Shown piece after piece: positions 26,745 to 63,054 of a stretch of DNA of 64,000 nt. The notes under the pieces were generated by a model. The model saw only the letters and a program-made list of their open reading frames with translations. It was not told where the DNA came from and ran no database searches. Within the stretch, counting starts at the first letter, position 1, and every line of letters starts with the position of its first letter. The stretch comes from Olsenella timonensis (GTDB lineage Bacteria; Actinomycetota; Coriobacteriia; Coriobacteriales; Atopobiaceae). Location: NCBI RefSeq assembly GCF_900119915.1, contig NZ_LT635455.1, positions 806,001-870,000 on the forward strand, written 5' to 3'. The translations under genes were made by a program, and so were the position numbers.

Positions 26745-26789
26745 CGCGCGGGTCGGTCCCCCTCGGCGCGCCTTGGCCGATTGCTCGCT

Positions 26790-26851
26790 GAGACGGAGCA
26801 TCTACGGAAAATCGCCCAAAAATCGGCGCCCTTTTCCGCAGATGCTCCGTC
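26790..26851. repeat. 66-bp-class inverted repeat, copy 1
   Basis: Left arm GAGACGGAGCATCTACGGAA and a right arm ending TTTTCCGCAGATGCTCCGTC. It lies between hipA and the next gene. It belongs to the family also found at 55096, 57256, 61660 and 62956. The right end is slightly decayed (GTCACGG rather than GTCTCGG). Confidence 0.9.
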
Positions 26852-26894
26852 ACGGCGGTATCGTAGACGGGACGCAACGTCGAGAGGAGCGCGC

Positions 26895-54789: not shown

Positions 54790-54993
54790 ATGGCTCAGGG
54801 TACTGTTAAGTGGTTCAATCCGGACAAGGGCTACGGCTTCATCTCCCGTGAGGATGGGGACGACCTGTTCGTTCACTACTCCGAGATTCAGATGGACGGC
54901 TTCAAGACGCTGGACGAGGGCCAGGCCGTCGAGTTTGACATCACCACCGGCCAGAACGGCAAGCTCCAGGCCTCCAACGTCCGCAAGCTCTAG
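54790..54993 (+). CDS. cspA: Cold-shock protein
   Basis: A 67-residue OB-fold RNA chaperone with both RNA-binding motifs: KGYGFIS (RNP1, about 15-21) and DLFVHYSEI (RNP2, about 27-35). It melts RNA structure and aids translation. ATG 54790 has GAAAG/AAAGG upstream. A leader of at least 150 bases after the previous terminator has small hairpins (CGTGGC/GCCACG and CCCCGCGGGG), as often found in cold-shock mRNAs, which may allow temperature-dependent control. That is inference. A strong terminator follows. Confidence 0.95.
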
Positions 54994-55018: not shown

Positions 55019-55047
55019 GGGGCTCGGGCTTCGGCTCGGGCCCCTTT
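55019..55047 (+). terminator. Terminator of the cold-shock gene, UUCG loop
   Basis: An 11-bp stem (GGGGCTCGGGC with GCTCGGGCCCC, including two G-T wobbles) closes a TTCG tetraloop and is followed by TTT. It lies 25 bases after the csp stop. Confidence 0.75.
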
Positions 55048-55060
55048 GCTGTGCCGCGGC

Positions 55061-55161
55061 TCTTCTCGCCTGCGTGTTATGTCGCCCGCCCTCACCGAGA
55101 CGGAGCGATTACGGAAAAGCTGGCCGATTTCGGGCTCGTTTTCCGTAGTTGCTCCGTCTCG
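55061..55161. repeat. Inverted-repeat copy 2 inside a 101-bp duplicated block
   Basis: The core at 55096-55161 has left arm CGAGACGGAGCGATTACGGA and right arm ending GTAGTTGCTCCGTCTCG, with a 21-base middle. The whole block 55061-55161 matches 57221-57321 with only five differences. It lies just upstream of the AbiL-like pair. Confidence 0.92.
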
Positions 55162-55248
55162 CGAATTGTGAGCCGGCGTTTTGCTGGCCGTGCCCGATCG
55201 ACATATCGGTGTTATAAAGTACTATATTCATAACCTCCGCTAGATTTT

Positions 55249-55278
55249 TTGCGAACTATCCGTAATATTCTGTATATA
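55249..55278 (+). promoter_or_regulatory. AT-rich predicted promoter of the AbiL-like pair
   Basis: TTGCGA (55249-55254), 18 bases, TATATA (55273-55278), ending 24 bases before the ATPase start. The tract 55201-55280 is strikingly AT-rich for this genome. GTTAT (55211) and ATAAC (55230) form a possible operator upstream. Confidence 0.5.
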
Positions 55279-55302
55279 GCAAATGAAGAGGAGGGAACTG
55301 CA

Positions 55303-56553
55303 ATGCTCACGGCCTTCTCGTTCAAAAACTTCGGACCCTATCGGGATGAGGTGCGGCTCGATCTGCGCGCCGCCCCTGCATATAAAGAGCACGAGTACAA
55401 CCTTGCCGAGTCCTCTATGGGCGAAAGACTCCTGAAGGTCGTGGCAATCTATGGGGCTAATGCCTCGGGAAAGAGTCAGTTCGTAAAGGCTTACCAGGCA
55501 TTCTTTAGGACTATCATGGAGTCGTTCAGCCAAGTGGACGAGCGCTCCATGAACCTGTCGGGAGACTATGTGGCGAGCCGCGGCGTCGGGTCTGCGCTTC
55601 GGCGGCATTACAACCCCTTCAAGTTTTCTTCCGACGGCGCCGGTGAAACGGAGTACGAGGCAACATACGCCGTGGATGAGGGGGAAATCAGATACGGCTT
55701 CTCGACCGACGGAAACAAGGTGCTTTCCGAGTGGTTCTATCTGGTGAAGGCGTCTACGAAAAGGACGAGCATCCTGTTTGAGCGCGACGGGCAGGATGTT
55801 GAATTTGGCTCCTCCGTACGTTCCGAGTGTGAGAGGTATGCGGAGAACATCTCCGAGGAGACCTTGGTGCTCTCGTTCATGAGCAGCATAGAGCTCAAGA
55901 CCCCGTATTTCAAAATCGCCCGGAGCTGCGTGGCCAGGACCCTGGCCTTCACCAACCTTTCTCCGGAGGTCGTCGACGTCATCATCGGGGATATCGCCCC
56001 CAATCTTGTGACCGGTGGCATGCACAGAAGCCTCCTCGAGTTCCTCGGCGCGATAGACGTTTGCATCGAGGACATCTCGGTAGAGAGAAACAACGACGAA
56101 GTGCTCGTGTTCACGCATCATCGTGGTCCCGATGGCAGGGTCTACCGTGTTCCGATCTCAATCGAATCGGAGGGGACCAAGAAGGCAATTGTGCTGTTCA
56201 GCCTGATGAGCGCGGTAATCGGGACCGATGCGACACTGCTTGTTGACGAGCTCAGCGCCGCGCTCCACCCGTTGCTCGTGCGCGCCCTCATAACACAGTT
56301 CTACCGCGAGGGGACCAAGGGGCAGATCGTGTTCACCACGCACGACACCTCCATGTTGGACAAGCGATATCTGCGTAGGGACCAGGTGTGGTTTGTGGAC
56401 AAGGACGAGGGAGGGTCATCCGAGCTCTACTCGCTTTCCGATTTCAGGCTGCGAAACGACACCAACTATACGAAGGGGTATCTCTCTGGCATGTTTGGCG
56501 CCGTTCCCAACCTCAGGGAGTTTGTGCTCGGAGGTGATGCGCGTGAAGAGTAG
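55303..56553 (+). CDS. AbiLi/RloA-like AAA ATPase
   Basis: A 416-residue ATPase of the AAA15/OLD-like group. The start is MLTAFSFKNFGPYRDEVRLD. Walker A is AIYGANASGKSQF (about 49-61), Walker B is TLLVDELSAALHP (about 310-322), and VFTTHDTSML follows (about 345). The middle part is a beta-rich and helical insert. The RloB gene begins inside its 3' end, so the proteins are coupled. ATPase plus RloB matches AbiL of Lactococcus and the RloA/RloB genes linked to restriction loci, known or predicted to abort phage infection. ATG 55303 follows GGAGGGA. AT-rich leader and lower GC indicate import. Confidence 0.78.
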   Translation: MLTAFSFKNFGPYRDEVRLDLRAAPAYKEHEYNLAESSMGERLLKVVAIYGANASGKSQFVKAYQAFFRTIMESFSQVDERSMNLSGDYVASRGVGSALRRHYNPFKFSSDGAGETEYEATYAVDEGEIRYGFSTDGNKVLSEWFYLVKASTKRTSILFERDGQDVEFGSSVRSECERYAENISEETLVLSFMSSIELKTPYFKIARSCVARTLAFTNLSPEVVDVIIGDIAPNLVTGGMHRSLLEFLGAIDVCIEDISVERNNDEVLVFTHHRGPDGRVYRVPISIESEGTKKAIVLFSLMSAVIGTDATLLVDELSAALHPLLVRALITQFYREGTKGQIVFTTHDTSMLDKRYLRRDQVWFVDKDEGGSSELYSLSDFRLRNDTNYTKGYLSGMFGAVPNLREFVLGGDAREE

Positions 56554-57208
56554 CGGGAGGTTCAAGGACCGTCGCAAGCAGAGGGGGCCTCGGACGATTG
56601 AGACAAGGGAGCCCCGCTGCGAGACTTTTCTAATCGTCTCTGAGGGTACGAGGACGGAGCCGCTGTATTTCGAGGGCCTCGTCAGGGCGCTCGCCAAGGG
56701 AGAGGTGCCCAACGAGGTGGAGATTGAGGGCGTCGGCCGCGTTACCACGTCGCTGGTGGAATGGACTGCGAAGAGGGTGAACCGCTCGCCGAGAAACTAC
56801 GACAACGTGTGGGTGGTGTTTGACAGAGACGACTTCGAAAACTTTGACGAGGCGGTGACTGCGGCAGAGCGAAGTGGATTCTGCGCTGCGTGGAGCAACG
56901 AGTCGTTTGAATACTGGCTCTGTCTCCATTTGGGTAGGTATGACTCCGCGCTGTCCCGGGGCGACTGGTTCCGCATTCTGAACGATGCTCTCAAGAAGTC
57001 GGGATACGGCGGTTTTGAGAAGAATCGGGAGGATTTGTTCTCTGTTCTCGACAAGATGGGCAGTCGTAACATGGCCAAGAGGAACGCCCGGAGCATCCGA
57101 GAGGGCTACGGGAAGGCCGCGCCGCCCTCGCAGTGTAATCCGTGCACGACGGTGGACCTGCTTGTCGAACAGTTGGAGAGGTCGCTGGACGGGTGGGTCG
57201 ACCATTGA
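56543..57208 (+). CDS. AbiLii/RloB-like protein
   Basis: A 221-residue protein of the RloB family. It has FLIVSEGTRTEPLYFEGLVR (about 31-50), with the EGxxTExxYF motif. The acidic pair is in VWVVFDRDDFENF (about 90-102), and NESFEYWLCLHLGRYD follows (about 120-135). These Glu and Asp-x-Asp positions look Toprim-like, so metal-dependent nucleic-acid cutting is a fair guess but unproven. GTG 56543 lies eight bases after GGAGG and overlaps the ATPase stop by 11 bases. ATG 56537 is less well spaced. It is the second half of the AbiL-like module. Confidence 0.78.
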   Translation: MKSSGRFKDRRKQRGPRTIETREPRCETFLIVSEGTRTEPLYFEGLVRALAKGEVPNEVEIEGVGRVTTSLVEWTAKRVNRSPRNYDNVWVVFDRDDFENFDEAVTAAERSGFCAAWSNESFEYWLCLHLGRYDSALSRGDWFRILNDALKKSGYGGFEKNREDLFSVLDKMGSRNMAKRNARSIREGYGKAAPPSQCNPCTTVDLLVEQLERSLDGWVDH

Positions 57209-57220
57209 CGTCCTGCTCGC

Positions 57221-57321
57221 TCTTCTCGCCTGCGCGTCATGTCGCCCGCCCTCACCGAGACGGAGCAACTACGGAAAAGCTGGCCGATTTCGGGCTCGTT
57301 ATCCGTAGTTGCTCCGTCTCG
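57221..57321. repeat. Inverted-repeat copy 3 inside a 101-bp duplicated block
   Basis: The core at 57256-57321 has left arm CGAGACGGAGCAACTACGGA and right arm ending GTAGTTGCTCCGTCTCG. The block matches 55061-55161 with five differences, and starts 12 bases after the RloB stop. Spacing between blocks is exactly 2160 bp. Confidence 0.92.
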
Positions 57322-57394
57322 GCGGTGTGTGTGGGTCGGCGGCGTGTGTGCCGGCGGTGTGGGTGTGCCGGCGGCCCGCCCTGGCACTCACCCC

Positions 57395-57453: not shown

Positions 57454-57915
57454 GTGTCAGACCAGCTTGCCAGCGCGCGAGAGATCGACGTGCTCTACCG
57501 CGAGAGCGACAAGCTCTACTATGAGATCGCCCGCAACTGCGGGCTTTCCGAGACCGCATACTGGATTCTCTATGCGCTGGAGGTCTCGGGCGGCAGCGTC
57601 ACGCAGCGCCAGATCGCGGAGCACTTCTCCTACTCCAAGCAGACCGTCAACTCTGCGCTCAAGACGCTCGAGGCGCGCGGGCTGGTCACGCTCGTCCCGT
57701 CCGACGGGGACCGTCGCAGCAAGCTCGTCTCCCTCTCCGAAGCGGGCCGCGCCTTCGCCGACGAGCGCATCCGTCCCGCCATCTCCGCCGAGGACCGCGC
57801 CTTCACGAGCCTCGCGCCGGAGGACCGCGCCGAGCTCGTGCGCCTGGTGCGCGCCTATGCGACCGCCATCGACGCGGAGCTAGCGCGGCTGAGAGAGGGG
57901 AGGGCAAGCGCATGA
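57454..57915 (+). CDS. MarR-family regulator of the downstream exporter
   Basis: A 153-residue winged-helix regulator. The DNA-binding region includes VTQRQIAEHFSYSKQTVNSA (about 50-69), the recognition helix being SKQTVNSALKTLEARGL, followed by the wing PSDGDRRSKLVSLSEAG. It should repress the operon until a ligand binds. GTG 57454 has GGAGAGGGGG upstream. The stop overlaps the first ABC gene start (ATGA). The palindrome in the promoter spacer is the likely operator. Confidence 0.9.
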   Translation: MSDQLASAREIDVLYRESDKLYYEIARNCGLSETAYWILYALEVSGGSVTQRQIAEHFSYSKQTVNSALKTLEARGLVTLVPSDGDRRSKLVSLSEAGRAFADERIRPAISAEDRAFTSLAPEDRAELVRLVRAYATAIDAELARLREGRASA

Positions 57916-61530: not shown

Positions 61531-61556
61531 CGGCCCTCTCGCTCGCGCGTCAAACC

Positions 61557-61660
61557 CGCCCTTCTCGCGCCCTTATCGCCGCCATTCCGCCGTCCTTCTC
61601 GCCCCTGTTCCGCCGCCCTTCTCGCCCCCATTCCGTTGGCCTTCTCGCCCCCATTCCGCC
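61557..61660. repeat. Degenerate tandem repeat, about 4 units
   Basis: Units close to CCGCCCTTCTCGCCCCCATT recur about every 24-27 bases between the exporter stop and inverted-repeat copy 4. The string CTTCTCGCC also occurs beside copies 2, 3 and 5 (there as GGCGAGAAG). Confidence 0.7.
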
Positions 61661-61725
61661 GAGACGGAGCGATTACGGAAAACTGGCCCCCAAATTGGCC
61701 ACTTTTCCGTAGACGCTCCGTCTCG
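61660..61725. repeat. Inverted-repeat copy 4
   Basis: Left arm CGAGACGGAGCGATTACGGA and right arm ending GTAGACGCTCCGTCTCG. The right flank GGCGAATCGGAG is shared with copy 5. It lies between the exporter operon and the convergent AbiEi-like gene. Confidence 0.92.
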
Positions 61726-61779
61726 GCGAATCGGAGAGCGGATGAGGGGGACGGATGAGAGGGACGGGCGAGAAGGGCG

Positions 61780-62838
61780 TCAGACTCGGGCTCGTGCGCG
61801 AACAATGCGCAGCCGGTCGGTCGCGTAATCGAGCCGCGAGCTGCGCGTGATTATCTCGGGGGCGACCGTCGGCCACGTGTCGGCGCCGTGCGGCACGCCG
61901 AAGCGCTCGAGCAGCTGCCCCAGGCGCGCCGGGTCGCGCGCGTCGTCGTAGGAGAAGCGCGCGATCGCCGGGTGCAGCGCCGTGAGGTGCGACTCGCGCA
62001 GGCGCTCGTCCTGCATGACGCGCAGCGCGTCTCTCCCGCCCATGAGCTCGGGTCGCTCCGTCTTCTGATGGCCGTCGAGCTCGCCGATAACGAGGCGACC
62101 GTCTGCGGTGAGCCACAGGAAGTCCACGCGGAACCACTTCCCGGGCTCGACGGGGTCCTCGATCCACACCTGCAGCTCGGGCATCGCAAAGCCGAGGAGG
62201 TGCATGTTCGCGCGCGCGATGGACTCGCCGCCGCTCTCGGCCCGCGCGTCGGCGAGCGCGGCTGCCCGCAGCGCGCCGCGGACGCCACGGTGCCCGCGGT
62301 ACCGCTCTCCGAGGTGGGTCGCAAGGCCCCGTGCCGAGACGCCGCTCATTCGCAGCGCGGCGTCGGCAATGGCGAGCGCGTCGGGCAGCTCGAACGACGC
62401 GAGGCAGTCGAACACCGTGCGCCAGAACGGCGTGAGCGGAAGCCCATCGTGCTCCTGGACGGCGTCGTCCTCGAGGTGCCGCCTCACGATGCCGGGGCAT
62501 GACCGGCGGCTCGCACCGGACGGGGCGGCCACGTGCACGTCGGAGAGCAGGTCCCACGTCACGGGGAGCCCGTAGGCAACGGCGGCCGACGCCCCGCAGA
62601 ACTGCCAGTTTGGGTGGTTGGGGGCGAGGGCGCGCATGAGGTGCAGCGTCCTCTCGGGCGGCTTGAGGCGCTCCCAGGAATCTCGCCGGAAGAAGAGGCC
62701 CCTGACAGGCTCGACGACCTGGTCGCGGCGATGGCGCATCGCCTCGCGCAGGCCGCGCTCGCTCGGGGTGCAGCAGCGCCGCGCCCGCTCGGCCTCGTCC
62801 AGCATCGCGGCGACGCTTTCATCGATGGACTTGCTCAT
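61780..62838 (-). CDS. AbiEi/DUF559-like protein
   Basis: A 352-residue protein. The middle (WRTVFDCLASFELPDALAIA, then DAALRMSGVSARGLATHLG) and the C-terminal SGGESIARANMHLLGF, ELQVWIED and RVDFLWLTADGRLVIGELDG match a common actinobacterial family. That family combines AbiEi-antitoxin-like helices with a short-patch-repair (Vsr/DUF559)-type nuclease fold. The Glu-Asp spacing in VIGELDGHQK fits a PD-(D/E)xK-like remnant. No AbiEii toxin gene is adjacent, so it is a solo form of unknown role, perhaps in defence. ATG 62838 has AAGGGGAGG upstream. Inverted-repeat copies 4 and 5 lie on either side of it. Confidence 0.65.
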   Translation of the reverse strand: MSKSIDESVAAMLDEAERARRCCTPSERGLREAMRHRRDQVVEPVRGLFFRRDSWERLKPPERTLHLMRALAPNHPNWQFCGASAAVAYGLPVTWDLLSDVHVAAPSGASRRSCPGIVRRHLEDDAVQEHDGLPLTPFWRTVFDCLASFELPDALAIADAALRMSGVSARGLATHLGERYRGHRGVRGALRAAALADARAESGGESIARANMHLLGFAMPELQVWIEDPVEPGKWFRVDFLWLTADGRLVIGELDGHQKTERPELMGGRDALRVMQDERLRESHLTALHPAIARFSYDDARDPARLGQLLERFGVPHGADTWPTVAPEIITRSSRLDYATDRLRIVRARARV

Positions 62839-62955
62839 GGATTGCCTCCCCTTGTGAGACTTCACCTCACAACAGCAGAATAGCAAACCACGAGTTTAAG
62901 AATTACAGCATTAGGTGAACGCTCGTATGTGCGAAGCCAAGGCTTACGCCTACAC

Positions 62956-63021
62956 CGAGACAGAGGAACTGCGGAAAACGGCGCCAAATTTCGGCCGATT
63001 TTCCGTAGATGCTCCGTCTCG
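62956..63021. repeat. Inverted-repeat copy 5
   Basis: Left arm CGAGACAGAGGAACTGCGGA (diverged) and right arm ending GTAGATGCTCCGTCTCG. It shares its right flank GGCGAATCGGAG with copy 4. It lies between the AbiEi-like and FmdB genes. Confidence 0.88.
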
Positions 63022-63054
63022 GCGAATCGGAGGGCGTATGGGGAGCGGGCAAGG

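Follow-up and report, generated by a model that had tools for sequence, protein, structure and literature searches.

The movement of small transposase-less defence and toxin-antitoxin modules among chromosomal sites is largely an open question. In integrons, attC sites are hairpin sites with variable centres that border exchangeable cassettes, often of toxin-antitoxin genes. REPINs, in the available part of the account by Bertels and Rainey (PMC3116915), are inverted doublets of REP sequences. In TIME-COMP structures and mobile insertion cassettes, cargo without a transposase is flanked by a pair of miniature elements, which may be oriented alike or oppositely (PMC4133298).

The window analysed here, a stretch of 64,000 nucleotides, covers positions 806001-870000 of the single-contig 2.18-Mb genome of Olsenella timonensis (labelled G000 among the compared genomes). 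The original prediction described two near-identical, directly repeated blocks offset by 2160 bp, with just an ATPase-RloB ORF pair and its AT-rich leader between them, and held the two blocks to be much more similar to each other than the other copies are among themselves. All of this was confirmed. Blocks 55061-55161 and 57221-57321 are identical at 96 of 101 bases (95% over 101-103 nt), and the pair is exceptional, since the closest of the remaining genomic copies reach only 72-85% identity, mostly restricted to a palindromic part of ~67 nt. To this description we add the near-perfect palindrome itself, which makes up 68 of the ~101 bases of each block (folding z about -9 on the left and -11 on the right) and recurs in ~20 copies across the genome. 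Each block is thus a 68-bp palindrome plus 34 bp of flank, and the pair also has in common the 34 nt that precede the palindrome on its left. The features of the site are listed below.

54791-54993, + strand: cold-shock protein gene (csp), left border of the site, conserved beside the interval in relatives
55026-55043, + strand: hairpin resembling a csp terminator, not part of the left block (consensus scan)
55061-55161, + strand: left repeat block, directly repeated at 57221-57321
55095-55162, no strand: left 68-bp palindrome with core GCTGGCCGATTTCGGGCTCG; 21/24 arm pairs, folding at -47 kcal/mol, z -9.1
55198-55225, + strand: promoter-like site in the AT-rich leader, within the frame (consensus scan only)
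55303-56553, + strand: abiLi-like ATPase gene (AAA_21; Pfam PF13304, 8e-19; PADLOC AbiLi, 1.8e-78)
56537-57208, + strand: abiLii-like gene for an RloB protein, overlapping the ATPase gene (Pfam PF13707, 3e-36; PADLOC AbiLii, 9e-26)
57221-57321, + strand: right repeat block, beginning 13 bases past the rloB stop
57255-57322, no strand: right 68-bp palindrome, core equal to the left core (20/20); 23/24 arm pairs, z -10.9
57454-57915, + strand: gene for a MarR-type regulator, bordering the site on the right

As in AbiL systems, an AbiLi-type ATPase gene and an AbiLii/RloB gene are adjacent here, and both are intact; the translated ATPase retains its Walker A motif (GANASGKS), and its orthologs carry the same motif. 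The pair is probably a phage defence that works by abortive infection. Searches for solved structural relatives of AbiLi and RloB gave none that were convincing, the weak RloB matches being chance or designed proteins. AbiLi homologues are found in 15 of 199 genomes sampled across the order. A distant, apparently decayed homologue in G040 has two in-frame stops (L295, G040:C1:836273-837475). The palindrome frame sets this locus apart, as the AbiL loci examined in other genera of the order are unframed, and the frame was rejected as a component of the AbiL system on this ground. Upstream of abiLi, a conserved TTACGGATAAnCCGTAA-like inverted repeat (55240-55290 in the window, with equivalents at L039, L040 and L041 in G003, G014 and G004) is a possible operator.

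The palindrome is built of two conserved inverted 24-nt arms (CCGAGACGGAGCnnnTRCGGAAAA) around a variable 20-nt core, and the spacing to the partner is 44-45 nt in 150 of the 154 arm matches that have one. Cores are self-complementary beyond shuffles (z 5.4). Arms are paired in 93% of cells, the mid-arm is frequently unpaired and covariation is weak. A conserved RNA hairpin was rejected as the sole constraint for the latter two reasons, and recognition of the sequence fits them at least equally well. The copies in G000 are nearly all intergenic (by rough gene calls), and their cores differ except in the AbiL pair. Most copies are single and lie among housekeeping genes, some of them between divergent genes. 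Relatives bearing the repeat include Olsenella uli An820 and uncultured or candidate Olsenella genomes, in a genus now named Thermophilibacter. In related genomes, equally long palindromes with different arms are found as type B in G005, G010, G001 and G045, as type C in G004 and G040, and in another form in G007. Rfam gave zero matches within the window, and a search for the palindrome on phages, plasmids and viral contigs gave no match. A CTTCTCGCC/GGCGAGAAG motif is found beside many palindromes.

Like attC sites, these palindromes are hairpins with variable centres bordering what look like exchangeable cassettes. They differ from attC sites in being dispersed rather than in one array and in having consensus ends CCGAGAC...GTCTCGG, with the GTTRRRY/RYYYAAC end boxes absent. 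They resemble REPINs as presented in the available part of the original account (PMC3116915): in both, conserved inverted ends stand at a fixed distance around a spacer that varies more in sequence but not in length and can pair, the doublets are scattered over the genome outside genes, and they form a long hairpin. Unlike REPINs, they have no linked RAYT gene. RAYT genes occur widely in the genus and carry shorter GGGGACnGTCCCC repeats; in genomes that carry both, they do not lie beside the palindromes, and G005 has palindromes and no RAYT. A RAYT-linked REPIN was rejected because the RAYT genes of the genus bear other repeats, and since this link fails, we do not file the palindromes as REPINs. 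A further difference is that matched pairs framing defence-type cargo are absent from the available part of the REPIN paper (PMC3116915). Several RAYT-like genes of the genus are themselves framed by two GGGGACnGTCCCC-type repeats of 33-45 bp (L241:1062-1096 and 1959-1993; also L244, L245 and L252).

At the csp-MarR site, AbiL is framed by two palindromes in G000, G003 and G014, and the two cores match within each genome (20/20, 18/20 and 19/20, respectively), the G000 core being unlike the other two. In a tree of the blocks, grouping is by genome and not by position (bootstrap 93-100). The original prediction took the high similarity of the blocks as a sign of recent duplication. A single such event is unsupported, since the frames in G003 and G014 have different cores and the blocks cluster by genome, which indicates repeated duplication or ongoing homogenisation. 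AbiL genes diverge by 11-25% among these genomes, so that the module, if orthologous, is not newly arrived in G000; with an old module, the mere 5% divergence of the G000 blocks needs homogenisation or renewed duplication. The frame is not obligatory, because G004 carries AbiL with a palindrome of a different arm type on the right-hand side only. In G005, the csp-MarR interval contains a single palindrome and no AbiL module.

Three further copies lie in the window, two of them around an AbiEi-like gene.

26788-26855, no strand: single palindrome past a HipA-like gene
61659-61726, no strand: palindrome beside the AbiEi-like gene, ABC side
61780-62886, - strand: AbiEi-like gene framed by two palindromes (ORF translation; weak PADLOC AbiEi match of the G003 ortholog, 2.5e-6)
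62955-63022, no strand: palindrome beside the AbiEi-like gene, zinc-ribbon side

Palindromes of four arm types frame the AbiEi-like gene in eight genomes (G000, G003, G014, G024, G005, G010, G007 and G040), and the cores are clearly matched in five of these but not in G000, G005 and G010. In G045 the gene is absent and one palindrome stands at the site, its core agreeing with that of G010 at 18/20. In G005 the gene is inverted; the inversion ends at the palindromes, and the flanks are collinear. A degenerate 23-bp tandem repeat (CGCCCTTCTCGCCCCCATTCCGC) at 61545-61659 of the window adjoins the palindrome at 61659.

One site, bordered by the genes for an ABC transporter and a 67-aa protein, holds different cargo in different genomes. 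The two border genes are separated by almost no spacer and no palindrome in G040, G023, G004, G013 and G024, and by one palindrome in G014, G005 and G045, whereas a palindrome pair surrounds a DUF3990+XRE cassette in G003 and, in G001 and G010, a 570-aa gene. The core of the lone G014 palindrome equals that of the G003 pair at 18-19/20. DUF3990 was found in only one of 31 genus genomes (G003), and it is therefore probably a recent arrival at this site, which in the relative G014 holds a single palindrome. A RES toxin identity for the 570-aa cargo, guessed from its sequence, was confirmed by no library searched. Sites with and without the doublet both exist, and comparison of the two does not indicate precise insertion, as roughly 30-70 additional flanking bases travel along with the palindrome. 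By eye, an 11-bp GC-rich repeat is present at the G003 DUF3990 site, with no clear target duplication.

HipBA is framed in G045 and accompanied by a single palindrome in G000 (on the right) and G040 (on the left). In G003 and G014 all that is left is a short piece of hipA next to one palindrome; no palindrome was detected at HipBA in G005, G023 and G001. Other framed genes are a membrane protein gene in G007 (near-matched pair) and a tandem duplication in G024. Close pairs at G003 C71 and G024 C21 were excluded as frames, their cores being unshared and their arm types mixed.

To gauge core matching, 1800 background comparisons were used, which have a median of 9, a 99% value of 15 and a maximum of 18 identical positions (of 20). 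In 10 of the 16 same-site framing pairs, the core similarity is one reached by at most 0.5% of the background. The other six have no clearly matched cores (AbiEi in G000, G005 and G010; the 570-aa gene in G001; HipBA in G045, which is marginal; and the rpsL site in G024). Matches to the palindrome model tend to lie close together in twos. This pairing is significant in G003 (4 pairs observed versus 0.3 expected, P 0.0002), and the excess of pairs in G000 alone is weak to marginal (P 0.06). Our impression is that, among the matches listed, matched pairs lie mainly around defence-type cargo.

When the matched framing pairs are compared with the gene-less, single-palindrome sites of relatives, the palindromes look like borders for gain, loss and flipping. 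On these sequence comparisons, we lean slightly towards the view that exchangeable defence-type cassettes are bordered by REPIN-like doublets, unlinked to RAYT, at which recombination takes place. Genus-wide, a resident palindrome would be duplicated around a small incoming accessory module, mostly one for defence or a toxin-antitoxin function, and the AbiL pair between csp and marR would be one such cassette. Exchange between the direct arms of the two copies would then delete the cargo and leave one palindrome, exchange between their inverted arms would flip it, and gene conversion would keep the two cores alike; possibly, nothing beyond general recombination or replication slippage would be needed. 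The anatomy, the matched cores and the different states of the sites are observed; we infer the cause and direction of the steps, including that gain and loss result from recombination at the palindromes and that the palindrome is doubled on insertion. The earlier proposal that the frame lets the module come and go by recombination is supported in part: single-palindrome empty sites, swapped cargo and one inversion speak for it, but the frame is not required, as G004 illustrates. G005 is the strain with a single block and no module that it had suggested looking for at csp-MarR, and the alternative cargo was found at another site (G003 versus G001 and G010), along with the empty sites in G014 and G045. 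Its other suggestion, that the blocks mark the insertion of an unknown repeat-copying element, found no support.

The main rival to recombination borders is that the palindromes are passive bystanders, which landed independently in the intergenic gaps made by any inserted module and whose neighbours were later converted alike, with no role in cargo gain or loss. Cargo with one palindrome or none does exist (AbiL in G004; HipBA in G005, G023 and G001), which also counts against a border role; most copies are single among housekeeping genes, and the grouping of blocks by genome is what conversion predicts. We nevertheless consider this account doubtful, because at two sites a single-palindrome empty site carries the core of a relative's framed pair (G014 versus G003, G045 versus G010), because the AbiEi inversion terminates at palindromes, and because of the mainly defence-type cargo of the matched pairs listed. 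A more elaborate form of the border reading, which we regard as unlikely, is a dispersed, array-less cassette system in which small defence and toxin-antitoxin modules would land at, and be bordered by, species-specific 68-bp palindromes, each arrival would duplicate the resident palindrome, and a hairpin-recognising recombinase would drive gain, loss and inversion.

Two miniature elements could also carry the DNA between them as a composite non-autonomous transposon, with transposase supplied in trans. Paired copies, direct or inverted, frame unrelated transposase-less cargo here as in TIME-COMP (PMC4133298), and one site holds different cargo. However, the loci examined contain no parent transposon, no arm on its own and no longer element bounded by such ends, target duplication is not clear, the same cassette was never seen at two sites and the RAYT genes carry other repeats, which makes this quite improbable. 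Least likely of all, the palindromes would be bidirectional hairpins kept by selection as transcription insulators on either side of toxic modules. They fold into strong hairpins, with block 1 following the csp terminator and preceding the promoter-like site of AbiL and block 2 right after the rloB stop, but hairpin selection needs no shared core, the consensus scan called no terminators at the palindromes, and some copies lie between divergent genes.

A literature search on palindromes framing toxin-antitoxin modules found nothing direct. If the palindromes are indeed recombination borders, REPIN-like repeats would gain a possible role in shuffling defence genes. Since borders, empty sites and alternative and inverted cargo are visible at defined loci, gain and loss are directly testable in this genus.

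The other genus members examined at csp-MarR have neither AbiL nor the palindrome, but other repeats are present there. In G001 and G010 (L044:1690-2500 and L043:2150-2800), the interval contains arrays whose ~40-bp units combine variable spacers with the conserved motifs CGTTGGAGACC and GCGCTTAGGGTT, and the array changes to the inverted form halfway. In G002 (L048:2060-2700), it contains tandem palindromes with AGCTCGCTCAAAGTCACGCTTT arms and variable cores.
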